Source: Pseudomonadales bacterium
GTDB lineage: Bacteria > Pseudomonadota > Gammaproteobacteria > Pseudomonadales > Azotimanducaceae
Reading direction: 5' to 3'
DNA length: 64,000 nucleotides
Assembly: GCA_022822135.1 (NCBI GenBank)
Contig: JAJECH010000054.1
Coordinates: 1 to 64,000 of the forward strand
The translations under genes and the position numbers were made by a program. The notes beneath the pieces are model-generated. The model was given only the letters and a program-made list of their open reading frames with translations, was not told the origin of the DNA and did not search any database. How positions within the stretch are numbered: the stretch's first letter is position 1; every line of letters starts with the position of its first letter. This document shows, in pieces, positions 12,726-30,679 of this stretch.

Positions 12726-13643
12726 CTGACTCCCAACTATGACGACGTTCGGCATGCAGCGGAACGTATCGCTGGATCCGTACATCGTACGCCCGTTTTG
12801 ACTTCCTCAAGCCTCAATGCGATGTTTGGCCGAGAGGTGTACTTCAAGTGCGAGAACTTTCAGAAAGTTGGTGCGTTTAAAGCACGCGGTGCGCTGAATG
12901 CGCTACTGAATCTACCGAGCTCTTCGGGCGATGTTGTCACGCATTCGTCCGGTAACCACGGTGCGGCTCTAGCATGGGCAGCTCGAAAACTTGGTAAGAC
13001 GGCATACGTCATATGCCCGACGAACGCATCTCGATTTAAGCGCGACGCCGTCGAGCGATACGGTGGCATCCTGGTTGACTGTGGACCTGCGATTTCACAG
13101 CGTGAAACCGCGTTACAGAGTTTTCAACATGAACGCGATGCGACATTTGTGCCGCCTTACGACAGTGCTGACATCGTTGCCGGTCAAGGCACAGCAACTT
13201 TGGAACTGCTTGAAGACGTACCGCAGGCGACCGAAGTTTGGGTACCGATTGGCGGCGGTGGATTGGCAAGCGGTGCGGTCGTTGCCTCAAACGGTCATTG
13301 TGACGTCGTCGGGTGTGAACCTGAACTAGCGCGAGACGCGCACGATTCGCTCGCGGAAGGACGGCGATTACCTGCGCTTCCACCGACGTCGATCGCTGAT
13401 GGTCTGCTTTCTTCGTTAGGTCAACTGAATTTCGAGATCCTACATAGAGCTCGCGTACCAATACGGCTTGTAAGTGAAGACGAAATACGCGCCGCGACGA
13501 TCTTGATCTGGCAAACGCTGAAAATCGTGATTGAGCCCTCTTCAGCCGTACCTGTCGCTGCGGCGCTCAAAGAGGATCGTTCAACGAAGGGTGCCATCGC
13601 CATCATCCTCAGCGGCGGGAACATCCAGCCAAATCTCAGCTAA
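12726..13643 (+). CDS. Threonine/serine dehydratase-like PLP enzyme, non-AUG start
   Basis: This is a fold-type II PLP enzyme related to catabolic threonine dehydratase and serine racemase. The Schiff-base lysine lies in the block FQKVGAFKARGA, the phosphate-binding loop is SSGNHGAA, and the glycine-rich loop is GGGGLASG. A conventional TTG start at 12798 would remove the conserved N-terminal segment YDDVRHAAERIAGSVHRTP, which clearly belongs to the family. The frame stays open back to a TAA at 12699, and its only plausible starts are CTG at 12726, with AAGGA 8 bases upstream, or ATT at 12708. With CTG the protein has 305 residues. It lies 43 bases after glnS. Confidence 0.8.
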   Translation: MTPNYDDVRHAAERIAGSVHRTPVLTSSSLNAMFGREVYFKCENFQKVGAFKARGALNALLNLPSSSGDVVTHSSGNHGAALAWAARKLGKTAYVICPTNASRFKRDAVERYGGILVDCGPAISQRETALQSFQHERDATFVPPYDSADIVAGQGTATLELLEDVPQATEVWVPIGGGGLASGAVVASNGHCDVVGCEPELARDAHDSLAEGRRLPALPPTSIADGLLSSLGQLNFEILHRARVPIRLVSEDEIRAATILIWQTLKIVIEPSSAVPVAAALKEDRSTKGAIAIILSGGNIQPNLS

Positions 13644-13767
13644 TCGAGGCTGCGGTCGTTGTTTCTTTGTTTGAGACGCTGAGAATCTAAGAACTCGCTC
13701 TTACAATGGCAACGTCCCGATCAGCGTATCGCGGTCGGTCACGTTACATCGTCGAAATGGGGCACTC

Positions 13768-15327
13768 GTGAGAAGAACGGTCCTAGGTCACCCAGTTGGG
13801 TTAGTCGTACTTTTTATTACCGAGTCGTGCGAGCGATTCAGCTACTACGGTATGCGCGCGATCTTGGTGCTGTACCTGATTGACCATTTCCTCTTCAAGG
13901 AATCGGTTGCATTTGAAATCGTCGCTTCGTATGGCGCAATGGTCTACTTCATGCCGGTCATTGGGGGTTTTATCGCCGATAGGTGGCTCGGTTTTAGGAA
14001 GGCGGTGATATTCGGCGCAGTCTTGTTATGTATCGGCCACGTATTGATGGCATTCGAAGGAACGGGTGGTACCGTGGTGGACGGTGAAATCGTCCAAGAC
14101 CAGTTCGCGCTGGGTGCTACATTCCTTGCGATGTCTTTCATCATCGTTGGTGTCGGTTTCCTCAAGGCATGCATCTCCAACATGGTGGGTCTGTTGTACG
14201 TGGACAACGACGAAAAGCGGGACCAGGGCTTCACGATCTTCTATTTCGGGATCAATCTCGGTGCGATGCTCGCGATTTTGTTGTGTGGTTGGATAGGCCA
14301 AGCATTCGGATGGGGCTATGGTTTCGGCCTAGCTGGTATCCTCATGCTGATTGGTCTAACCGTGTTCCTCGCAGGTCGTGCTTCCCTGCAAGGTGTCGGT
14401 GAACCCCATGATCCAAGCAATCTCGTCTCAACGGTGGTAGGCATCCGTAAGGAGTGGTTGATCTATGCCGGGGGTGTTGTAGCGACGCTGTTTACGGCAT
14501 ACCTATTGCAGTCTCGTGATCTAACGAAGGTCTTGCTCTACTCAGTCGGTTTGATCGCGTTAGTTGGCGTCTTGATCTACGCTCAGCGAACGTGTACCAA
14601 GCAGCAGCTGCGTCGTATGTGGGTGATGCTTTATCTCATCGTCGTCTCAGTGATTTTTTGGGGTTTATTCGAGCAAGCCGCACACAGTCTCAAGGGATTT
14701 GCGTCACGCAATTTAGACCCTGAATTCCTTGGGATTACGTTCAATGCGGCACAGATCGAATCACTTAATCCAGCGTTTATCTTGGCTTTTTCACCAATCT
14801 TCGTTTGGATCTGGTATACGCTCGGTCGAAATCGCATCGAACCATCGCGTCCGATGAAATTCGGCATTGGCATCATCTTATGTGGTGTCGGATACGCGAT
14901 GTTCCTGTTTGGTTGTATGTCGGCGAACGCGGAATTTCAGGTCGCAATGATCTGGGTCGTGCTGGGATTCCTCTTCATTACGTTAGGGGAGCTTTGCTTA
15001 TCGCCTGTCGGTCTTTCCATGATTACTCGCTATTCGCCTGTGGAAATGGTTGGCGTCATGATGGGAATCTGGTTCCTCGCTAGCAGTGTTGCAAGTCTCT
15101 TCGGCGGTCAGCTGGCGCAATTCGCTGCAATTGACGAAGAACTAGGTACGACGATCGCGGCGGTTGATTCGCTCGCTGTCTACGAGAACGCATTCGGGAT
15201 TTTCACTGGTCTGGGGATTGGTGTTGGCGTCCTTGTGGCGCTTTCCGCGCTTTGGCTGAAACGATTCCTCGGTGACGATGACGAGCCAGAAACGACGGAG
15301 CCAATGGCTGCGGCGGCAGTTCAGTAA
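13768..15327 (+). CDS. POT-family proton-coupled peptide transporter
   Basis: This 519-residue inner-membrane protein of the POT/PTR2 (MFS) family imports di- and tripeptides with protons. The N-terminal family signature ESCERFSYYGMRAIL, containing the ExxERFxYYG motif, is at about residues 19-33. About twelve to fourteen hydrophobic segments follow, and the later block FWGLFEQAAHSL corresponds to the conserved helix 7 region. The start is GTG. The gene is probably transcribed on its own, with 124 bases before it and 63 after. Peptide uptake fits the peptidase and C1/N-compound metabolism elsewhere in the window. Confidence 0.92.
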   Translation: MRRTVLGHPVGLVVLFITESCERFSYYGMRAILVLYLIDHFLFKESVAFEIVASYGAMVYFMPVIGGFIADRWLGFRKAVIFGAVLLCIGHVLMAFEGTGGTVVDGEIVQDQFALGATFLAMSFIIVGVGFLKACISNMVGLLYVDNDEKRDQGFTIFYFGINLGAMLAILLCGWIGQAFGWGYGFGLAGILMLIGLTVFLAGRASLQGVGEPHDPSNLVSTVVGIRKEWLIYAGGVVATLFTAYLLQSRDLTKVLLYSVGLIALVGVLIYAQRTCTKQQLRRMWVMLYLIVVSVIFWGLFEQAAHSLKGFASRNLDPEFLGITFNAAQIESLNPAFILAFSPIFVWIWYTLGRNRIEPSRPMKFGIGIILCGVGYAMFLFGCMSANAEFQVAMIWVVLGFLFITLGELCLSPVGLSMITRYSPVEMVGVMMGIWFLASSVASLFGGQLAQFAAIDEELGTTIAAVDSLAVYENAFGIFTGLGIGVGVLVALSALWLKRFLGDDDEPETTEPMAAAAVQ

Positions 15328-21966: not shown

Positions 21967-22141
21967 GAACCCCAGCGATCATATAAAGGACTCATTAGGC
22001 GGTCGTTTGGATAGCTTTTTGGTTCCCGAATTAGCCTTTGTGTATCTTGAGTCTTAAGAGCTTCAGCATTTCAAATTGCAACCGTCGAATCTCTACAGAG
22101 AAGCTCGTCGTGATTGACCTACAGCAGAGCAAGTCGTGAGC

Positions 22142-23620
22142 ATGTCTAATCAGCCAAAAGGTGCATCTAAGCGAACGGAGCAATTTTTCTCTGAACTAAC
22201 CGACGCCATTGATCAAAGTTACGAAGAGATAGGACAATCCCTTGCACGGTTTTTCAACGGGTTAACGCCTCGATTTGAAGCATCGCGATATATCGATAAA
22301 GAACTAAATCGCGAACTTGCTCACCACTTTAATATCTTCGATTACTTGCGAAACGACGAACTCGGATTATCGGCGATTATTGCTGATCTACTAAACCCCA
22401 ATGCGAAACACGGGCAAGGACCGATCTTTCTCAAACTGTTTCTCGAACGGTTGGAATTTGATGAGATTTGGAAATCTGCTGACTTGCATAACGCGCGAAT
22501 CGCAACGGAGGAGACGATTGAGAGCAGTAGGCGAATTGACATATACGTCCGAATACCGTGTTCGTTGGGTCCTTTATGCCTGGTAATTGAGAACAAACCA
22601 TTTGCTGGTGACCAAAGTGGTCAAGTTCAGGACTATCTCGCTCACCTCAGAAACCGCTACGGGAAAGGACGATTTCGTCTAATTTTCCTATCTGGTGACG
22701 GACGACCGCCGTCCAACGATAGCCTCAATCGTAAGGAACTTATGAAGTTCGTTGACAATAGCGAGTTCTTGATAATGGCCTACAACGAAATCAGCTCTAT
22801 TGACGAGGGTGATGGGGATGAATTTGAGAGATTTCGCACAAGCTTCACGCTTGTAAATTGGTTCGAGTCATGCCGTATTTCTTGTCGTCCGGATAAACTG
22901 CGACTTCTCTTGCGGGAAGCTGAGTCATATTGCAGACGCAAATTTGGGGACCATAAGGTGATGTCAAACAGAGAGATCGAAACCGTAGACGAGTTTCTGC
23001 GGGAGAACCCGCAAAATCTGAATGTTGCCTTAGCCGTGTTTGAAGCATGGCCAAGCGTTCGACATTCCATCTGTAAAAGATTTCTTGAACATCTTCGAGA
23101 CAGAGTTGAGCGAGAAATTCGAGATGCAGGAATTGCTGACGCCGAGAGCATTTGCGTTAAGACAATGCATCCGAACGAGAAAGCGGGTCAAAACAAACTC
23201 CTGTTTTACAGTACGAATTGGCGTCAGCACGAGGGCAGTGTTGCGGAAGAAACGAACGGACGCACTTCCGTGATGTTTGAAAACTACGGAAATTGGCTTG
23301 GGAATTGGATAATCGGTGTACGTTCGCCGAGTCCGGAAATTGGCAAGGATGAGGAACCAAAACGCAGACAACTCGAAGCGGAACTCACTGTGATACTCGG
23401 TGAGGGAAAAAAGGATGAGTGGTGGCTTTGGAGAAAATTCATTGATCCTCAATATGCAAATTGGCAATCATCTCGCGTCCAAGATCTCGCAACGGAGCTA
23501 ATGAACATTGAACGTGGAGAACCATTACAAAGTGAGGTTTCAGAATACGTAACCCGTGAATTTGTTGAACTTGCAAGAAAGACATTTGAAGTCATAAGTG
23601 AGGCTGAAGGGGTACGCTAG
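22142..23620 (+). CDS. PD-(D/E)XK nuclease superfamily protein
   Basis: This 492-residue protein matches the PD-(D/E)XK nuclease family found in many accessory islands (the group with NIFDYLRNDELGLSAIIADLLNP-like N-terminal region). The nuclease core has RRIDIYVRI (Asp near 133) and LVIENKPFAGDQSGQ (Glu near 150, Lys near 152), with a following Gln-rich helix QVQDYL. GTG at 22136 is an alternative start two codons earlier. The C-terminal half is of unknown function. It stands alone, 175 bases after ccoP, and marks the left end of the accessory island. A defence role is inferred from family and context. Confidence 0.8.
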   Translation: MSNQPKGASKRTEQFFSELTDAIDQSYEEIGQSLARFFNGLTPRFEASRYIDKELNRELAHHFNIFDYLRNDELGLSAIIADLLNPNAKHGQGPIFLKLFLERLEFDEIWKSADLHNARIATEETIESSRRIDIYVRIPCSLGPLCLVIENKPFAGDQSGQVQDYLAHLRNRYGKGRFRLIFLSGDGRPPSNDSLNRKELMKFVDNSEFLIMAYNEISSIDEGDGDEFERFRTSFTLVNWFESCRISCRPDKLRLLLREAESYCRRKFGDHKVMSNREIETVDEFLRENPQNLNVALAVFEAWPSVRHSICKRFLEHLRDRVEREIRDAGIADAESICVKTMHPNEKAGQNKLLFYSTNWRQHEGSVAEETNGRTSVMFENYGNWLGNWIIGVRSPSPEIGKDEEPKRRQLEAELTVILGEGKKDEWWLWRKFIDPQYANWQSSRVQDLATELMNIERGEPLQSEVSEYVTREFVELARKTFEVISEAEGVR

Positions 23621-23834: not shown

Positions 23835-24089
23835 TTGATAAAACTGACCATCAATAATCTGCCAGCAGAACTCGGAGTCGCGCTTGAGAATGAGAGCAAG
23901 CGCATCGGTAAGTCCATAGACGACACCGCAATCATCCTCTTACGTGAATCACTCGGCATTCCCGATCGACCTGAAAAATGGACAAACGGATTGGAAAGAT
24001 TGGCCGGTGGTTGGACAGAGGAAGATTTTCAGGAATTTGAGCGGAATACTGCTGAAACTCGAGCGATCGACGAAGAATTGTGGCGATGA
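23835..24089 (+). CDS. VapB-like antitoxin, orphan
   Basis: This 84-residue protein looks like a VapB-type antitoxin. The N-terminal half (IKLTINNLPAELGVALENES, then GKSIDDTAIILLRESL) fits a ribbon-helix-helix DNA-binding domain. The C-terminal part (LAGGWTEEDFQEFERN then IDEELWR) fits the toxin-binding tail of antitoxins paired with PIN-domain toxins. The start codon is TTG. The toxin gene normally follows with an ATGA overlap. Here ATGAGAATCGTG at 24086 encodes the expected MRI start, but the frame stops after 18 residues, so the toxin appears destroyed. Confidence 0.6.
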   Translation: MIKLTINNLPAELGVALENESKRIGKSIDDTAIILLRESLGIPDRPEKWTNGLERLAGGWTEEDFQEFERNTAETRAIDEELWR

Positions 24090-24395
24090 GAATCGTGCGG
24101 TCTGCTATTTCCCGGTTCGTGCGTTTCTATCTCGAAACATAGTTAACACTTGCATCCTTAGTATGCTATCAACGATCTCGACTTGTTAAAAGTCGACTAC
24201 ACGCGGTTGAGGCAAAATTAATCAACCTATATCAATAAGTTAAATCAATTTTCTACCGAAGTTGACGCTAGAAGATCGGAAGATCGTTTTCCGTTACCTA
24301 GAGTAAATTCATGTCAGAATCCTAGTGACTACGACCGCTTTTGTCGCACTTTATCTCTAAACTTCATCTTCAGCTGACTTGATTGAGGATTCGCA
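24086..24395 (+). pseudogene. Decayed toxin remnant and gap before AAA+ gene
   Basis: This 300-base stretch has no intact gene. At 24086 an ATG overlapping the antitoxin stop begins MRIVRSAISRFVRFYLET and then terminates. VapC proteins paired with this antitoxin type often start MRI, so this is probably the stub of a deleted PIN toxin. A downstream stretch at about 24165-24218 reads INDLDLLKVDYTR, which resembles a PIN C-terminus, but the similarity is weak. The remainder is AT-rich and probably holds the promoter of the AAA+ gene. Confidence 0.35.
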
Positions 24396-26489
24396 TTGCT
24401 GAAAGGGTACAAACGTCACTTAGTACTTAGTAATTTATCAAATATCGCGTCAAAGATTCGGCCATATCGGAATGACGCGAATCGGTTTCTTAGGTCATTA
24501 GTTGAGATCGCGGACGAGTTGAATATGCGACGTGTCCTCGCGAATGAAGCACTTCAGCACGCGTGTGACAATGATGTCAGGCTGTCCGATGCGGACTGGA
24601 CTCACGTATGCAATCTGATCGATAAATTCAGAGAGAAGCCGGTTTCGCGTGATACCTTGGCGGAACGGATTCGCGAATTAGCGAAGCAAATGAAATTCGC
24701 TAAGTCAGATGCTGCGATTCTCGAACTTTTACTCTACTACGAAACAGATTCGATTGTCGAGCATCTTGTTGATGAAATGCTGGATTACCGACGTCCGCAT
24801 GGATCACGTTATTCGCGATTTTCCGTATTGAACCCCGATCTTGCAGATTTGCTGGGGGTCACAAAGGGGCAGATTCGTGAACGTCTCACTGTTGACTCGC
24901 CGTTAGTCCAAACCGGGATCGTTTCTGTGGACGAAGATGGCGAGTTGGAAGTACTGTCTCGACTTAAGTGCTTAGCATATGAACCGACGAACAGCACTCG
25001 CCAAATTCAACAGATGCTGTTTGAAGAAGCTCCGGCGTCTGAACTTGAATGGCAGGACTTCGATCACGTGTCGTCCGGTCGCGATCACATCGAGCAACTC
25101 ATTGTTGGTGCTTTGAAAACCGGTGTGAAAGGTGTGAACGTCTTGATTCATGGTCCGCCAGGAACCGGTAAGACCGAGTTTTGTAGAACGCTTGCGCAAC
25201 GACTAGGTATTAATTTGTTCAGCGTTGGTGAGTCAGACGAACACGGTCGCGAACCAAGTCGAAGTGAACGACTCCGCGAACTTCGACTGGCTGAACGCCT
25301 ACTAGGGCAGTCTCATAACTCAATACTGCTCTTCGACGAAATGGAAGATCTTTTGTCTGAGTCAGACTTGGATTTAGGATGGCAGTTGACGGGATTCCAT
25401 CGTCAGACTCGGACTCGCGGGACCGGAGGCTCGAGAGTTTTCATGCATCGACTGCTAGAACAGAACTCGGTTCCGACCTTGTGGACATCGAATTCGGCAC
25501 GCCAAACCAACCCTACGTTGCTGCGACGCATGATGTATGCGTTTGAATTGAGGCAACCATCATCGCGGATTAGATCGCGAATTTGGCGACGCCAACTAGC
25601 TCGTCACGGGGTTCCATCAGCGGACGAGGATGCGGAAATACTTGCGAACGACTTTGATGTAACTCCTGGTGTCGTCGATCGTGCTGTCGCGGCGGCGCGC
25701 CTCGTTAAAGGTGGCGACATCTCAACGGTCCATAAAGGAGTTGAGAGCTTGTCACGAGTGATTCATGGACCAAAGCCGCCTAAAACGAAGTTCGCAAATT
25801 TCGATCCGACACTGGTTTGTGCGAACTCTGACCCGGTTGAGTTGGCGGATCGACTCGCTGGACTTGAGAGTCGCCGATTCTCTGTTTCCCTACAAGGTCC
25901 ACCTGGCACTGGCAAGAGCGCGTACGTTAGGTACCTGGCGGAACGAGTTGGGTTGGAAGTTATGCAAAAACGGGCATCGGACCTTCTATCCATGTGGGTT
26001 GGCGGAACTGAAGCCAATATCGCGGACGCATTTGCCGAAGCGCGTGATAAGGAACAGTTCCTGGTTTTCGACGAAGCCGACTCCCTATTGGCTGACCGAC
26101 GATTTGCGCATCGAAACTGGGAAGTGAGTCAGGTCAATGAGATGCTCACTTGGATGGAAACCCATCCGTTTCCATTCGCGTGTACGACGAATTACGACGA
26201 GCGACTTGATCCCGCGACATTGCGACGCTTCGACTTCAAGTTACGGCTTGACTATCTTTCTCGCGAAAAATTGAGAACAGCGTTCATGGTGTTCTTCGGA
26301 GTGACGGCTCCGATGGAGATTGATCCACTGACCAACCTAACCCCCGGCGACTTCGCCGTTGTTCAACGACGAGCAGAAGTGCTCGGAAAGATGAAGGATG
26401 TGAAAGCCATTGTGTTGATGCTTAAGGAAGAGAGCGAGGTCAAGCCTGAACAAGCGAGTCCCATGGGATTTAGGGCTAACGACACCTGA
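24396..26489 (+). CDS. Tandem AAA+ ATPase
   Basis: This 697-residue cytoplasmic protein carries two AAA+ modules. Module 1 has Walker A GPPGTGKT (253-260) and Walker B LLFDEME (about 311-317). Module 2 has Walker A GPPGTGKS (501-508), the pore-like block DLLSMWVGGTEANIADAF, Walker B LVFDEAD (about 556-562), and an arginine-finger-like PATLRRFDFKLR near 610. The first 200 residues are helical and unassigned. The second module looks like FtsH/proteasomal ATPases, suggesting substrate unfolding or remodelling. The TTG start lacks a good ribosome binding site. A WYL regulator follows after 31 bases, so the two probably form an operon. Confidence 0.85.
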   Translation: MLKGYKRHLVLSNLSNIASKIRPYRNDANRFLRSLVEIADELNMRRVLANEALQHACDNDVRLSDADWTHVCNLIDKFREKPVSRDTLAERIRELAKQMKFAKSDAAILELLLYYETDSIVEHLVDEMLDYRRPHGSRYSRFSVLNPDLADLLGVTKGQIRERLTVDSPLVQTGIVSVDEDGELEVLSRLKCLAYEPTNSTRQIQQMLFEEAPASELEWQDFDHVSSGRDHIEQLIVGALKTGVKGVNVLIHGPPGTGKTEFCRTLAQRLGINLFSVGESDEHGREPSRSERLRELRLAERLLGQSHNSILLFDEMEDLLSESDLDLGWQLTGFHRQTRTRGTGGSRVFMHRLLEQNSVPTLWTSNSARQTNPTLLRRMMYAFELRQPSSRIRSRIWRRQLARHGVPSADEDAEILANDFDVTPGVVDRAVAAARLVKGGDISTVHKGVESLSRVIHGPKPPKTKFANFDPTLVCANSDPVELADRLAGLESRRFSVSLQGPPGTGKSAYVRYLAERVGLEVMQKRASDLLSMWVGGTEANIADAFAEARDKEQFLVFDEADSLLADRRFAHRNWEVSQVNEMLTWMETHPFPFACTTNYDERLDPATLRRFDFKLRLDYLSREKLRTAFMVFFGVTAPMEIDPLTNLTPGDFAVVQRRAEVLGKMKDVKAIVLMLKEESEVKPEQASPMGFRANDT

Positions 26490-26520
26490 ATCGAACCGCG
26501 ACTATCTATGGATTAGCAAT

Positions 26521-27516
26521 ATGCGTTACGAACAAGCAGCAAACCTCGTAAGGTTGGCGATTCTTCTTCAGGGATCCGTCGGTGGCTTGACCATCAGCGA
26601 GATTGCTAGCGAGTTTACGACCAGTCGACGAACCGCAGAAAGGATGCGTAACGCCATCGAAGATACGTTCGGACCGCTTCTGCTCGTCAATACCGGAGAT
26701 CGACAAAATCATTGGCGACTGCAATCTCGGAGTCTACGCGGTCTCATACAGATTTCTCCGGAGGAACTGGTTGAACTCGAGTCTGCTGCAGACCAACTTG
26801 AACATACCGGACTAATAGAACGGGCTAAATCTCTGCGCGAGCTTGGGACCAAAGTTCGTGCCGCACAACAAATGACCGATGTCACCGAATTCGAATCGGA
26901 CTATGAGATGTTGTTGCATGCCGAGGGATTGGCAATGCGACCAGGGCCGCGCATTGATATCGAACCAGGTCTGCTCAGGTTGATTAGAACCGCGATTAAG
27001 AGCACTCGTCAGTTAGCGTTCCAATATAACGCAAGGCTCTCTGGGCGAGAGAGCGAACAACTCGTCAAGCCTTACGGTATCCTATATGGCAACCGCCCGT
27101 ACTTGGTCGGAACGCCAGAACATGAGGATCTTCCCCATCTATGGCTACTTCCAAACATGAGCAACGTTCAAGTTACTGAGCACTCGTTTGAGTGGGACGA
27201 CGAATTTGACCTTCAAACTTATGCAGAGCGTTCGTTCGGCGTGTTTCAGGAAGAACCGTTTCAGGTTGTCCTTCGATTTGAACCAGATGCTGCTGAGGAC
27301 GCGGCGAATTTTCGGTTCCATCCGACTCAGACTTTGCACAAAGACAAAGATGGTTCGTTAACAGTGAAATTCACCGCGGGTGGCTTAGTTGAAATGTGTT
27401 GGCACTTAGTTACGTGGGGAACGAGCGTTCAAGTTGAACAGCCGAGAAATCTCCGCGAATACATCGCTCGTGCATGCGAAGAACTTGCCGAGCATCATTC
27501 GGTGTCTTCAGATTGA
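26521..27516 (+). CDS. WYL-domain transcriptional regulator
   Basis: This 331-residue regulator has an N-terminal DeoR-like helix-turn-helix (GLTISEIASEFTTSRRTAERMRN, about residues 22-44) and a WYL domain. The WYL-type core is seen in ALVKPYGILYGNRPYLVG-like text (QLVKPYGILYGNRPYLVG, near 180-197), followed by a C-terminal extension domain. WYL proteins bind nucleotide-like or nucleic-acid ligands and often control defence genes. It is 31 bases after the tandem AAA+ gene and overlaps the convergent DUF2779 gene by 22 bases at the 3' ends, so it may control both sides of the island. Its own operator was not identified. Confidence 0.85.
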   Translation: MRYEQAANLVRLAILLQGSVGGLTISEIASEFTTSRRTAERMRNAIEDTFGPLLLVNTGDRQNHWRLQSRSLRGLIQISPEELVELESAADQLEHTGLIERAKSLRELGTKVRAAQQMTDVTEFESDYEMLLHAEGLAMRPGPRIDIEPGLLRLIRTAIKSTRQLAFQYNARLSGRESEQLVKPYGILYGNRPYLVGTPEHEDLPHLWLLPNMSNVQVTEHSFEWDDEFDLQTYAERSFGVFQEEPFQVVLRFEPDAAEDAANFRFHPTQTLHKDKDGSLTVKFTAGGLVEMCWHLVTWGTSVQVEQPRNLREYIARACEELAEHHSVSSD

Positions 27517-29006
27517 GCGATGCGAGACAACGCTTGACGCACCTTGAACGTAGCAAGTGTGTCGCGCTCGCAATATTCTCGAAGTTGGCTGAATATTTGC
27601 TTTCGTCGTTTAGAGTCTTCGCTATCGATCGCGTTCATGTATTGGACCGCAGCGAATTGACCATCTGCGATATCGAGATCGTCATAGCCGGAATCCGGGC
27701 AAAGTACAGGAAACACGCTCTTGAGCGAAAATGAACCGTGAAGATCTGGATGGTAATAGGCGCGCCGTATGACTTTGAGCATGTCAAAGAGTCGGTCAGA
27801 AATCTCACCGAGCTTCTTAGCCCGTTTCGGCACTGCTTCGATCAGGTCTGACAAAATCCGTTGCTCGTATGCACCGTAAGTACAGATAGCGCCGCTCTCC
27901 CCGACAGCTTCAATTAACGCATCGGCGATTTTTATTCGCGGATCGTCGTTACTCTCGTGGAGATAGTCAGTGTGTGAAGGTAGTTGCCCCTCTCGCTCAG
28001 TGTGCACGGAGAAGAGAAACGGGATCGCATCAAATGGGCTCGTTCCTTTAAATCGAGGGATCGCTGGTGCGAACGTTTCGAAGTCGAGATGTCGTATAGG
28101 TCTTTCGATCGAATCCACAGCGCTTAATACCTCGTGATTAACGATTACTCGTTCCTCAAGTATTGCGCGGCGAATGATCTGTTGTCGCTCGGACAACGGG
28201 AAGTCCTCTGGGATTTCGTGGACTCTAATGATGTTTTCAGCATCCAGTTCTTCACGGCGCTTCTTTGACAGATTTGGCAGCTCGCCAATTGGATACTCTG
28301 GGAACTCGACTCCATACGAACAATCGGTGTAGTAAGGACAGTCATATGGGTGGAAGCAGTGATCGCCGATTTCTACATCCGGTGCTTCTTCACTCTTGAT
28401 CAATTCCTGCATTTCACGCGCTTGTTCAGCCGTGATGTCAATGGATTCAACAGCTTGTTCAAATCGGTCGTGAAATCGGAATAGCTCATTCAAGTCAAGT
28501 TTTTTACCGTCGTACACGTACTCTCGATTGAGTGTAAGAATGCCAGCCTCACGAAGGTCAAGCCCCGATTTGCTCGCAATGTAGAGTTGAAACGCAAGGT
28601 CAAGTTCGTGGACAGGTTTAACTCTGGTAGTGGATTTCACCTCGATCACGCGCCAACCACCCGCTGGTAAACGCTCGAGAATGTCCACGCGCGCGATCAA
28701 TCCTTCATGCTCAATCGCCGGTTCGAATAGCGCGGGTACGTTGCTACCTTCTAAGACCATATTGGTCTCCGTCAGCGCTTCATCGAAATGAAGGTGGTCG
28801 TGCTCGATGAGGTGCCCGCCTGGGTACCGTTCGCACGCTAGTTCGCCTACTTCATGACCAGATTTGAAGACCGCGAGTTGTGAGTCACTGGCCGTGTCCG
28901 CTAGTTTTGCGGCATGAAAGTCGTTCCAGAGCCGCAAGTGACACTGCGACCCAGACAAGAATTTGGACTTTGATAGTCGATGAGTCTCGTTCATATTAGG
29001 ACACAC
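27495..29006 (-). CDS. Cas4-like nuclease fused to DEDD-type exonuclease (DUF2779)
   Basis: This 503-residue protein has two putative nuclease parts. The N-terminal RecB/Cas4-like domain carries Asp108 in LIARVDILER and Glu122-x-Lys124 in VIEVKST, with Cys22 in QCHLRLW and a Cys cluster HCFHPYDCPYYTDC near 218-232 that may hold an iron-sulfur cluster. The C-terminal DUF2779 domain begins with RHLDFETFAPA, a DEDD-like exonuclease motif I, and continues with TYGAYEQRIL and SDRLFDML. A start at MNETHRLSKSKF four residues in is possible. No CRISPR genes are nearby. It overlaps the upstream small gene by 16 bases and is convergent with the WYL gene. Confidence 0.82.
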   Translation of the reverse strand: MCPNMNETHRLSKSKFLSGSQCHLRLWNDFHAAKLADTASDSQLAVFKSGHEVGELACERYPGGHLIEHDHLHFDEALTETNMVLEGSNVPALFEPAIEHEGLIARVDILERLPAGGWRVIEVKSTTRVKPVHELDLAFQLYIASKSGLDLREAGILTLNREYVYDGKKLDLNELFRFHDRFEQAVESIDITAEQAREMQELIKSEEAPDVEIGDHCFHPYDCPYYTDCSYGVEFPEYPIGELPNLSKKRREELDAENIIRVHEIPEDFPLSERQQIIRRAILEERVIVNHEVLSAVDSIERPIRHLDFETFAPAIPRFKGTSPFDAIPFLFSVHTEREGQLPSHTDYLHESNDDPRIKIADALIEAVGESGAICTYGAYEQRILSDLIEAVPKRAKKLGEISDRLFDMLKVIRRAYYHPDLHGSFSLKSVFPVLCPDSGYDDLDIADGQFAAVQYMNAIDSEDSKRRKQIFSQLREYCERDTLATFKVRQALSRIAQSEDTE

Positions 29007-29326
29007 TCGGCTTCCATGAACCGGCTGGTTCCTTCAAGCGCAGTAGTTCGGTCTTCAGAAACCGCGACGAAATCAACATTTTTCGAAGCATTCTTGTCTC
29101 GGTGTTTTGCATAGATATCACCCAGTGAACCTCTTCGAAGAGGGAGTTCATGAATCAGGACGTTTTGTACTCTCTTCGCGATGTTCTCAATAGCGTTGAG
29201 AATGTCAGGCAGAAGGAGTGCGAAAAATGGTGCAAAGTAAGGATCGAGTCTGAATCCAGGCAGATGTCGTGATTGGTCTACGTAATTGAATATTGCTTTG
29301 AGATCTACGAGATTATTGTCCGGCAT
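28991..29326 (-). CDS. Small protein upstream of DUF2779 gene, possibly truncated nuclease
   Basis: This 111-residue protein begins MPDNNLVDLKAIFNYVDQ and overlaps the DUF2779 start by 16 bases, so the two are translationally coupled. Its second half (ELPLRRGSLGDIYAKHRDKNASKNVDFVAVSEDRTTALEG) resembles the first part of a PD-(D/E)XK nuclease core: an Asp in NVDFVAVSEDR that would usually be followed by a strand carrying an ExK motif. Here the ExK strand is missing or degenerate, and the protein stops after ECVLI. It may be an internal-deletion remnant or an accessory subunit. No family was recognised with confidence. Confidence 0.5.
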   Translation of the reverse strand: MPDNNLVDLKAIFNYVDQSRHLPGFRLDPYFAPFFALLLPDILNAIENIAKRVQNVLIHELPLRRGSLGDIYAKHRDKNASKNVDFVAVSEDRTTALEGTSRFMEAECVLI

Positions 29327-29412
29327 AGTGATCGAGATAGCTTAGCTAAAGGAGAATCAGCTTAGCACCCAACTCCGACAAATCCGGTTGTATAGGAAGA
29401 GGTTAGTTATCC

Positions 29413-29456
29413 ATTCATGAGGTGAATGATTATCATTCATGCCATGAATAAATATC
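29413..29456. promoter_or_regulatory. Two 22-bp operator-like repeats before AAA_14 gene
   Basis: Two copies of a 22-bp unit lie head to tail at 29413-29434 and 29435-29456. Each starts with a pseudo-palindrome, ATTCATGAGGTGAAT and ATTCATGCCATGAAT, and each ends TATC. The junction forms another perfect repeat, TGAATGA/TCATTCA. A 22-bp period places both on one face of the helix. They overlap the possible start codons (29426 and 29444) of the ATPase gene, suggesting autorepression by that protein's winged-helix region. Confidence 0.6.
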
Positions 29457-30679
29457 ATAAACGAATCGTTGAAGGTGCGCTTACGCAACACCTTAACACG
29501 ATGCCTGTCGTGGTAGTTCTCGGAGCACGACAAACAGGCAAGAGTACCTTAGTTCAGTTTGCGGAGGATCAAGAACGACGCTACGAAACGCTAGATGATC
29601 CCGCGACTCTGTCAGTGCTTACGGAACAACCTCTTGATCTCTTATCGATTGAACAATATCTAACGTTGGATGAGGTGCAGCGGCTCCCACAAGTGCTCCT
29701 CGACATCAAGCGTCTAGTCGATCAAGACCGTAATCATGGACGGTACCTTCTTACTGGTTCTGCAAATCTGCTCGTCATGCGTGATGTCTCGGAATCTCTA
29801 GCCGGTCGCGCTAGCTATCTAACGCTATGGCCTATGTCGAGACGGGAGCAGTTGGGTCTAGGAACCTGCGGTATGTGGGACGAACTGGTATCGAACCGTG
29901 AAAAAGACTGGGTTGATCTCATCATTGAAGAATCGATTGACGAAATAGCCGCCGACAACAATCAAGATTGGCGAACTTTAGTTAAACGCGGCGGTTATCC
30001 GATCCCCGCTCTTGAGTTGGAAGACGAAGGAAAACGCAGCATATGGTTCGATGGCTACGTACGAACCTACCTTGAACGAGACGTACTCCAGTTAGCCAAT
30101 ATCTCAAACTTGATTGATTTTCGTCGACTAATCTTGATGGCGTGTCAGCGAATCGGGCAGGTCGTTAATCAAACAGAACTAGGACGATCAACCTCGATAC
30201 CACAACCCACTGTTAACCGGTATCTAAACCTGCTCGAAACGTCGTATCAGTTGGTTCGTGTTCCGGCGTACGTCAGTAAACGCTCCAAGCGATTGATCAA
30301 ATCGCCAAAACTCTATTGGAGCGACACGGGTTTGGCATTGCACATGGCTGGTGCGGAACCTACGGGTGCGCATTTTGAAAACCTGATTCTCGGCGATCTC
30401 CTCGTTTGGCGAGACTCAAGTCTGGCACGCTGCGACATCTTTCATTGGCGAACGACCGACGGAATTGAAGTGGATTTTGTTCTAGAGACTAGCTCAGGTT
30501 TGATACCGATCGAAGTCAAGGCCACGACCAATCCAAGACTACGAGACACGACAAGCCTACGCGCGTTCCAACGAGAATACGAAGGAGCCTCACGAGCAGG
30601 TTTGTTGCTGCACAGTGGCAGCGAAACTACGTGGCTAACTAACAACGTTCTTGCGGTACCGTGGTGGCGAATCCTTTAG
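29426..30679 (+). CDS. AAA_14/DUF4143 ATPase
   Basis: This 417-residue protein has an N-terminal AAA-type ATPase with Walker A in LGARQTGKST (about 35-44) and a Walker B-like region ending LDEVQ near 85. Then comes a helix-turn-helix-like segment (VNQTELGRSTSIPQPTVNRY) and a C-terminal DUF4143 domain with a degenerate nuclease-like ending (WRTTDGIEVDFVLETS, then IPIEVKATT), where Asp, Glu and Lys sit in PD-(D/E)XK spacing. An alternative start is ATG at 29444. It is a distant paralogue of the gene at 62191-63450. Families of this type are widespread in mobile regions but poorly understood. Confidence 0.8.
   Translation: MIIIHAMNKYHKRIVEGALTQHLNTMPVVVVLGARQTGKSTLVQFAEDQERRYETLDDPATLSVLTEQPLDLLSIEQYLTLDEVQRLPQVLLDIKRLVDQDRNHGRYLLTGSANLLVMRDVSESLAGRASYLTLWPMSRREQLGLGTCGMWDELVSNREKDWVDLIIEESIDEIAADNNQDWRTLVKRGGYPIPALELEDEGKRSIWFDGYVRTYLERDVLQLANISNLIDFRRLILMACQRIGQVVNQTELGRSTSIPQPTVNRYLNLLETSYQLVRVPAYVSKRSKRLIKSPKLYWSDTGLALHMAGAEPTGAHFENLILGDLLVWRDSSLARCDIFHWRTTDGIEVDFVLETSSGLIPIEVKATTNPRLRDTTSLRAFQREYEGASRAGLLLHSGSETTWLTNNVLAVPWWRIL

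Follow-up and report, generated by a model that had tools for sequence, protein, structure and literature searches.

Do a tandem AAA+ ATPase gene, a WYL-domain regulator gene and a convergent nuclease gene that lie side by side in a Pseudomonadales bacterium act as one system? We addressed this question for a stretch of 64,000 nucleotides (assembly GCA_022822135.1, contig JAJECH010000054.1, positions 1 to 64,000; hereafter the window), in which a first-pass annotation had combined an ATP-driven motor, a regulator and a nuclease into a "sense-and-cut" unit. All four open reading frames (ORFs) of that proposal, including a small one next to the nuclease gene, were confirmed where they had been placed (Table 1). 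Our results point to a locally regulated, inducible module in which a WYL protein of the type of Caulobacter DriD would activate both the AAA+-WYL operon and the nuclease operon, a reading to which we assign a probability of roughly 0.6. The gene pairing, the operator and −10 architecture, the sharing of operators and the intact ATPase and nuclease sites can be read directly from the DNA.

Operators of the AAA+ and nuclease promoters

The published DriD consensus, ATACGAC-N7-GTCGTAT, lies over the −35 region with a −10 element at a fixed distance (PMC12340889, PMC4211646). We compared 45 further loci whose WYL gene is of the DriD type; in 44 of them the AAA+ promoter contained an operator of the form ATRCGWC-CGNATCT-GACGYAT, found de novo and mostly 38–50 bp (typically ~45 bp) ahead of the AAA+ start. 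Leave-one-out scoring recognised 43/45 AAA+ promoters versus 21/431 other upstream regions of the same loci (Fisher p 1e-42), and some of these 21 regions belong to genes that are really co-regulated. Downstream of the operator, the −10 element TAnnnT spanned +9 to +14, with T9 kept in 42/45, A10 in 44/45 and T14 in 39/45 promoters. Both marks of a DriD-type promoter, the operator over the −35 region and the fixed distance to the −10 element, were thus present. Furthermore, a profile built from AAA+ promoters only recovered the published DriD sites of didA and driD/CCNA_03891 with scores of 23.3 and 20.8 (0/2000 shuffles). Loci with another WYL subfamily carry ATGCGAC-N7-GTCGCAT instead, and an unbiased scan placed the peak at a spacing of 7 for both WYL types. 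When 20 genomes were searched, the motif gave 24 matches compared to 1 for the reversed control, usually at the AAA+ locus only.

In the window, the AAA+ operator received the top position weight matrix (PWM) score of the entire 64 kb and ends 46 bp before the TTG start codon. The second-best hit is another operator, whose end likewise lies 46 bp ahead of the operon that contains the nuclease gene and the truncated gene of its partner. The equal distance before both operons suggests a shared regulon. Scoring operator and −10 element jointly over the 64 kb ranked the nuclease site first (21.3) and the AAA+ site second (12.6); the maxima of 15 shuffled windows were ≤12.0, save for one of 19.2.

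A wider search for a DriD-like regulon yielded one strong extra site in the same genome (contig C3, 93163–93181; locus L205, 1486–1520, minus strand). This DriD-type operator with its −10 element reached a joint score of 33.0, far higher than the window's own sites, and it precedes the gene of a 345-aa orphan protein without Pfam or PADLOC match, of which a 31% relative exists in the genome of locus L054. Separately, three loci (L044, L046, L066) harbour islands in which several genes are each preceded by a copy of CTGCGAC-N7-GTCGCAC, a layout that looks like an island under a single WYL protein.

A Cdc48-like ATPase, a DriD-like regulator and a DUF2779 nuclease

The AAA+ protein consists of an N-terminal helical domain (residues ~1–220) and two AAA modules (Pfam PF00004, E 8.5e-35, two stretches). 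Its Walker A residues (G253, G256, G258 and K259 in module 1; G501, G504, G506 and K507 in module 2) and Walker B residues (D314 and E315; D559 and E560) are intact, and both Walker A/B pairs, the sensor asparagine and the paired arginines (LRR/RRF) are invariant across 47 homologues with identities down to 25%. The pore loop of module 2 displays the aromatic-hydrophobic-glycine motif SMWVG (SDLLSMWVGGTE), a classic feature of Cdc48/Vps4-like translocases. The protein thus shows the classic features of a double-ring remodeller: two AAA+ modules in tandem, Walker sites that are intact and a pore loop with an aromatic residue. Profile searches and Foldseek identified NVL, Rix7, Afg2 and Cdc48/p97 as relatives, the latter three being matched by the AlphaFold2 (AF2) model (mean predicted local distance difference test score (pLDDT) 84.5). 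Together with the pore loop, these matches make protein remodelling the most likely activity, as judged from the family. The second module, taken for FtsH-like in the first-pass annotation, proved to be nearer to Cdc48/NVL/Afg2, and an FtsH-like role at DNA or membranes was rejected on the same profile and Foldseek results. Likewise, alignment, profile search and Foldseek spoke against a DNA motor that feeds the nuclease and for a protein unfoldase or remodeller.

Two further relatives of the ATPase deserve mention. Module 2 resembles IetA (~87 bits) of IetAS, which comprises an AAA+ ATPase and a subtilisin protease; in contrast to IetA, the window protein is tandem and has no subtilisin-like gene alongside. 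Pfam searches found no protease domain in the seven genes between 22136 and 30679 and thus no adjoining IetS, and an IetAS identity was rejected (NF042959, 87.5 bits versus a cut-off of 510). PHROG 10401, an ATPase family with no recorded function, aligns with almost all of the AAA+ protein (E 2.8e-69) and is the phage-borne side of this family.

The gene that follows the ATPase gene after 31 bp encodes a protein with WYL and WCX domains (Pfam). It matched Caulobacter DriD by phmmer (E ~2e-56, residues 1–326) over the winged helix-turn-helix, the helical linker and the WYL and WCX domains. Profile searches returned DriD with 1e-90 versus 1.5e-6 for CapW and 1.3e-3 for BrxR, and assignment as a BrxR/CapW-type regulator was rejected on these values. 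The recognition helix RRTAERMR is identical in the window, and R36, R41 and R43 are kept in 47–48 of 48 family members. DNA recognition of the DriD type is well supported by this conservation. DriD itself is a single-stranded DNA (ssDNA)-activated, SOS-independent activator of a DNA-damage regulon (PMC4211646, PMC12340889). We judged the ligand residues via PafBC and alignment, deriving their role from the PafB pair R211/R214 (PMC11804915); in PafB, mutation of the arginines that match those of the DriD pocket abolishes ssDNA binding (PMC11804915). Compared with DriD, the window regulator is a full-length homologue with an equal operator type and operator-to-−10 spacing, whereas the pocket arginines are only partly kept in the AAA+-linked family. 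It thus has the DNA-side features of DriD and lacks the ligand-side ones that were tested. The two also differ in reach: DriD governs the scattered genes didA, bapE, recJ and dnaG, while the window-type regulator would mainly govern its own AAA+ operon and linked nucleases.

The nuclease, whose gene converges on the WYL gene and overlaps its end by 22 bp, is a clear member of DUF2779 (PF11074, E 1.6e-34, 119 bits versus a cut-off of 23.3) with weak Pfam matches to RNase_H_2 and Cas4. It joins a four-cysteine Cas4/RecB-like domain (C22, C217, C223, C229; E95, D108, E122/K124, Q140) to a DEDD-type RNase H-fold domain (D308, E310, E381, D482). All these residues are invariant in 19 relatives, in agreement with the RecB-type and DEDD-type sites that had been noted at first sight. 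The combination of a DUF83/Cas4-like and a DEDD site is a known property of DUF2779/COG2251 (TM0106-type) nucleases and not new (PMC3985635). A CRISPR Cas4 identity was rejected (18.4 bits versus a cut-off of 22.7), the TM0106 model TIGR03491 scored 43.5 bits, below its curated cut-off of 97.45, and the nuclease profile found no match among PDB sequences. The small protein thought to be coupled to the nuclease is indeed encoded by an ORF overlapping the nuclease start as ATGA; it is, however, a truncated remnant of a PD-(D/E)XK-like partner. Intact homologues of this partner (240–263 aa in L032, L033 and L053) carry VD...ELK, and the homology of the 111-aa ORF ends just before the ELK motif. 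A Pfam search of the partner returned no match; its AF2 model (pLDDT 70.6) gave weak Foldseek hits, none below 0.001, mostly to PD-(D/E)XK enzymes.

Linkage, distribution and island setting

We placed genes in 108 homologous loci using hidden Markov models and tblastn. A WYL gene was present within 6 kb of the AAA+ gene in 70 of them, confirming the AAA+-WYL pair as real and widely conserved, with a sensor-type regulator. DUF2779 was found within this distance in 16/108 loci and in 15 of the 70 pairs. The first-pass annotation had named a pair usually standing without the nuclease as evidence against its trio, and this is what we observed (55/70 pairs); a fixed trio thus did not hold. On the tree, AAA+ loci that have the nuclease are mixed with those that lack it. 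Nevertheless, uncorrected for shared species history, AAA+ distances followed those of DUF2779 (Mantel r 0.91, n = 16), compared to 0.66 for WYL (n = 70), 0.64 for AAA_14/DUF4143 (n = 9) and 0.43 for PDDEXK_4 (n = 5), the latter two being other genes of the island. The gene order of AAA+ and DUF2779 varies between convergent, co-directional and divergent, suggesting that the link is not simple retained synteny. The nuclease operon has an operator-like site upstream in four loci (the window, L032, L110 and L034). Such a site also stands before the PD-(D/E)XK-like gene of L053 and at a locus of partner and nuclease that is unlinked to AAA+ (L281 in genome G378). The tie of the nuclease to the AAA+-WYL pair is thus supported by three independent signs: repeated proximity, co-divergence and a shared operator. 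Of the idea that regulator, ATPase and nuclease belong together, the association remained, as a regulon link with an optional nuclease; in place of a sense-and-cut complex, the sense step is most likely transcriptional, acting through WYL-dependent promoters. In L032, an HNH endonuclease gene (13590–14051) comes first in the operon of partner and DUF2779 and is directly preceded by the operator.

Among 369 genomes of the class, 26 carry the AAA+ gene, 22 carry DUF2779 and seven carry both (expected 1.6, p 3e-4). The two genes lie within 10 kb of each other in six of these seven (five of six when the window's own genome is set aside), and 19 of 50 AAA+-bearing genomes have DUF2779 somewhere. 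AAA+ homologues were detected on 26 plasmid records and on six contigs from viral databases, all six with WYL gene and operator. In the genus of the window, 3/18 genomes (own included) contain the AAA+ gene, one as a relic (L271, 8610–8644 and 8890–9870): an AAA+ fragment of 74% identity that ends at residue 434 and retains the −10 element and the operator facing it, consistent with a deletion of the WYL and nuclease genes. Another recurrent partner is an ADP-ribosylglycohydrolase gene that adjoins the AAA+-WYL pair and is operator-linked in L111, L112 and L114. In L111 and L112, PD-(D/E)XK and UvrD genes follow it.

The window locus sits in an island flanked by cytochrome oxidase-type and sarcosine dehydrogenase/GcvT-type genes, as read from translations. 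A PDDEXK_4 gene (22136–23620) corresponds to the PADLOC defence candidate PDC-S26 and an AAA_14/DUF4143 gene (29426–30679) to PDC-S01 (360 bits). Neither was accepted as a member of the unit. The former has no upstream operator and diverges weakly with AAA+ (r 0.43). The latter points away from the nuclease operon, its start lying 32 bp past the distal edge of the second operator; its co-divergence is lower (r 0.64), and by eye no in-register −10 element was seen towards it from the second palindrome. Elsewhere (L075 and L089), an operator-bearing DUF1643 gene is followed by a PDDEXK_4 gene. At 23835–24089 of the window, an 84-aa ribbon-helix-helix ORF (FitA-like, below cut-off) has no recognisable toxin gene adjoining it.

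Table 1 Genes and promoter elements of the AAA+-WYL-nuclease locus in the window
Feature	Position	Strand	Remarks
Tandem AAA+ ATPase gene	24396..26489	+	697 aa, TTG start
DriD-like WYL/WCX regulator gene	26521..27516	+	331 aa; full-length phmmer match to Caulobacter DriD structures
DUF2779 nuclease gene	ORF 27495..29006; likely ATG start 28994 (27495..28994)	-	PF11074, invariant catalytic residues
111-aa ORF, truncated PD-(D/E)XK-like partner	28991..29326	-	Homologues 240-263 aa
DriD-type operator, AAA+ promoter	24329..24349	+	CTACGAC-CGCTTTT-GTCGCAC; PWM 14.6
-10 box TAAACT, AAA+ promoter	24358..24363	+	Offset conserved in homologous promoters
Second DriD-type operator, nuclease operon	29373..29393	-	ATACAAC-CGGATTT-GTCGGAG; PWM 12.1
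-10 box TAAGCT, nuclease operon	29359..29364	-	Operator-to-box offset as at AAA+ promoter

Proposed mechanism, alternatives and meaning

In the mechanism that we favour, the DriD-type WYL protein encoded in the AAA+ operon would bind operators overlapping the −35 region and recruit RNA polymerase to two weak promoters, that of its own AAA+-WYL operon and that of the convergent nuclease operon. The trigger would most likely be ssDNA or a related nucleic-acid signal, produced when DNA is damaged, when a phage replicates or when plasmid DNA enters the cell. The Cdc48-like double-ring ATPase would then remodel proteins, probably complexes on DNA or proteins of the invader, and in some lineages the Cas4-like/DEDD nuclease and its PD-(D/E)XK partner would degrade or process DNA. 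The purpose of the module may be defence or survival of DNA damage. A broader version, which we put forward tentatively, would see a mobile, SOS-independent immune or DNA-damage module with a DriD-type sensor, an invariant Cdc48-like core and exchangeable operator-linked nucleases (DUF2779 with the PD-(D/E)XK partner, or HNH) or an ADP-ribosylglycohydrolase.

Several observations weigh against the proposed activation of both operons by a DriD-type sensor. In the AAA+-linked family, the pocket arginines R204 and R207 are present in 38/48 and 37/48 proteins and R210 is changed to N in 38/48; in the window the three positions read H, L and N, all altered. With the arginines partly kept in the family and lost in the window, ssDNA may not be the ligand here; its assignment is uncertain for the family and especially so for the window protein. 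Moreover, DriD is no close relative of 22 of the 70 WYL partners, and the DriD promoter of bapE was not recognised by the profile from AAA+ promoters. On the side of the nuclease, the operator is absent or poor before the linked operons of L033, L035 and L036; six of eight extra or unlinked DUF2779 loci that were examined have no operator in at least 2–10 kb, and one further such locus ends at a contig end. Many AAA+-WYL pairs sit among housekeeping genes (SurA, TrpE, NuoG, LolA-type), and no phage or DNA-damage phenotype of the module is on record. Finally, the window copy, with its weak operators, truncated partner and altered pocket residues, may be partly decayed or rewired.

This last point leads to the possibility that the window holds a decaying, non-functional remnant of a module that is active elsewhere, which we would not expect but take seriously. 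Its AAA+ operator scores 14.6 versus typically 28–34, the weakest apart from some distant loci, and within the close set no operators are weaker than the two of the window; long terminal branches, the truncated partner, the lost pocket arginines and the deletion relic in a congener fit the same picture. Against decay, none of the AAA+, WYL and nuclease ORFs is shortened, every invariant catalytic residue of ATPase and nuclease is present, and the −10 spacing is intact. That the nuclease is an unrelated neighbour in a defence island, preceded by an operator-like site by chance, is quite improbable: its site lies at the equal 46-bp distance with the −10 element in register and recurs before the nuclease operon of other loci, and AAA+ and DUF2779 strongly co-diverge, even though defence genes cluster, DUF2779 accompanies AAA+ in so few loci (16/108), 13/35 analysed DUF2779 genes have no AAA+ gene nearby and one of 15 shuffled windows attained 19.2.

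The WYL protein might also be a local repressor that silences a costly AAA+ defence operon until a ligand relieves it, in the manner of the WYL proteins that repress BREX and CBASS (PMC9122589, PMC9122588). BrxR and CapW likewise adjoin suspected defence operons, an operator over the −35 region is a place where a repressor could act as well, and one WYL subfamily of the AAA+ loci is far from DriD. BrxR and CapW are, however, much more distant in sequence and have other partners, the activator DriD is the best match by far, and the operator replaces the −35 element so that only the −10 element at fixed spacing is conserved, as in DriD-activated promoters (PMC12340889). We therefore regard repression as unlikely and infer activation. 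Somewhat less improbable, yet still rather doubtful, is a module for endogenous DNA repair or a checkpoint, in which the ATPase would clear stalled proteins and the nuclease trim ends. It agrees with the DNA-damage regulon of DriD (PMC4211646, PMC12340889) and with AAA+-WYL pairs that often stand alone by SurA, TrpE, NuoG and LolA-type genes; the patchy spread (26/369 genomes of the class, 3/18 of the genus, own included), the occurrence on plasmids and viral-database contigs, and window neighbours that are phage-defence candidates (PDC-S26, PDC-S01) speak against it.

In the open-licence literature that we searched, we found no description of an AAA+-WYL pair under a DriD-type operator, which does not prove its absence, nor of DUF2779 next to an AAA+ partner and controlled from such an operator. 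The proposed module, a mobile AAA+ unit activated by its WYL protein and joined by nucleases in some loci, is new as a combination of known parts. It ties an alarm of the ssDNA type to a candidate defence module in a concrete, testable way, with an operator defined to the base and relatives in Caulobacter. The operator also serves as a cheap finder of additional members, orphan genes in other parts of a genome among them. The core effector of the module may be the Cdc48-like AAA+ protein. Our findings suggest that WYL proteins of the DriD type, besides regulating the response to DNA damage from the chromosome, act as dedicated local switches on plasmids and viral-database contigs.

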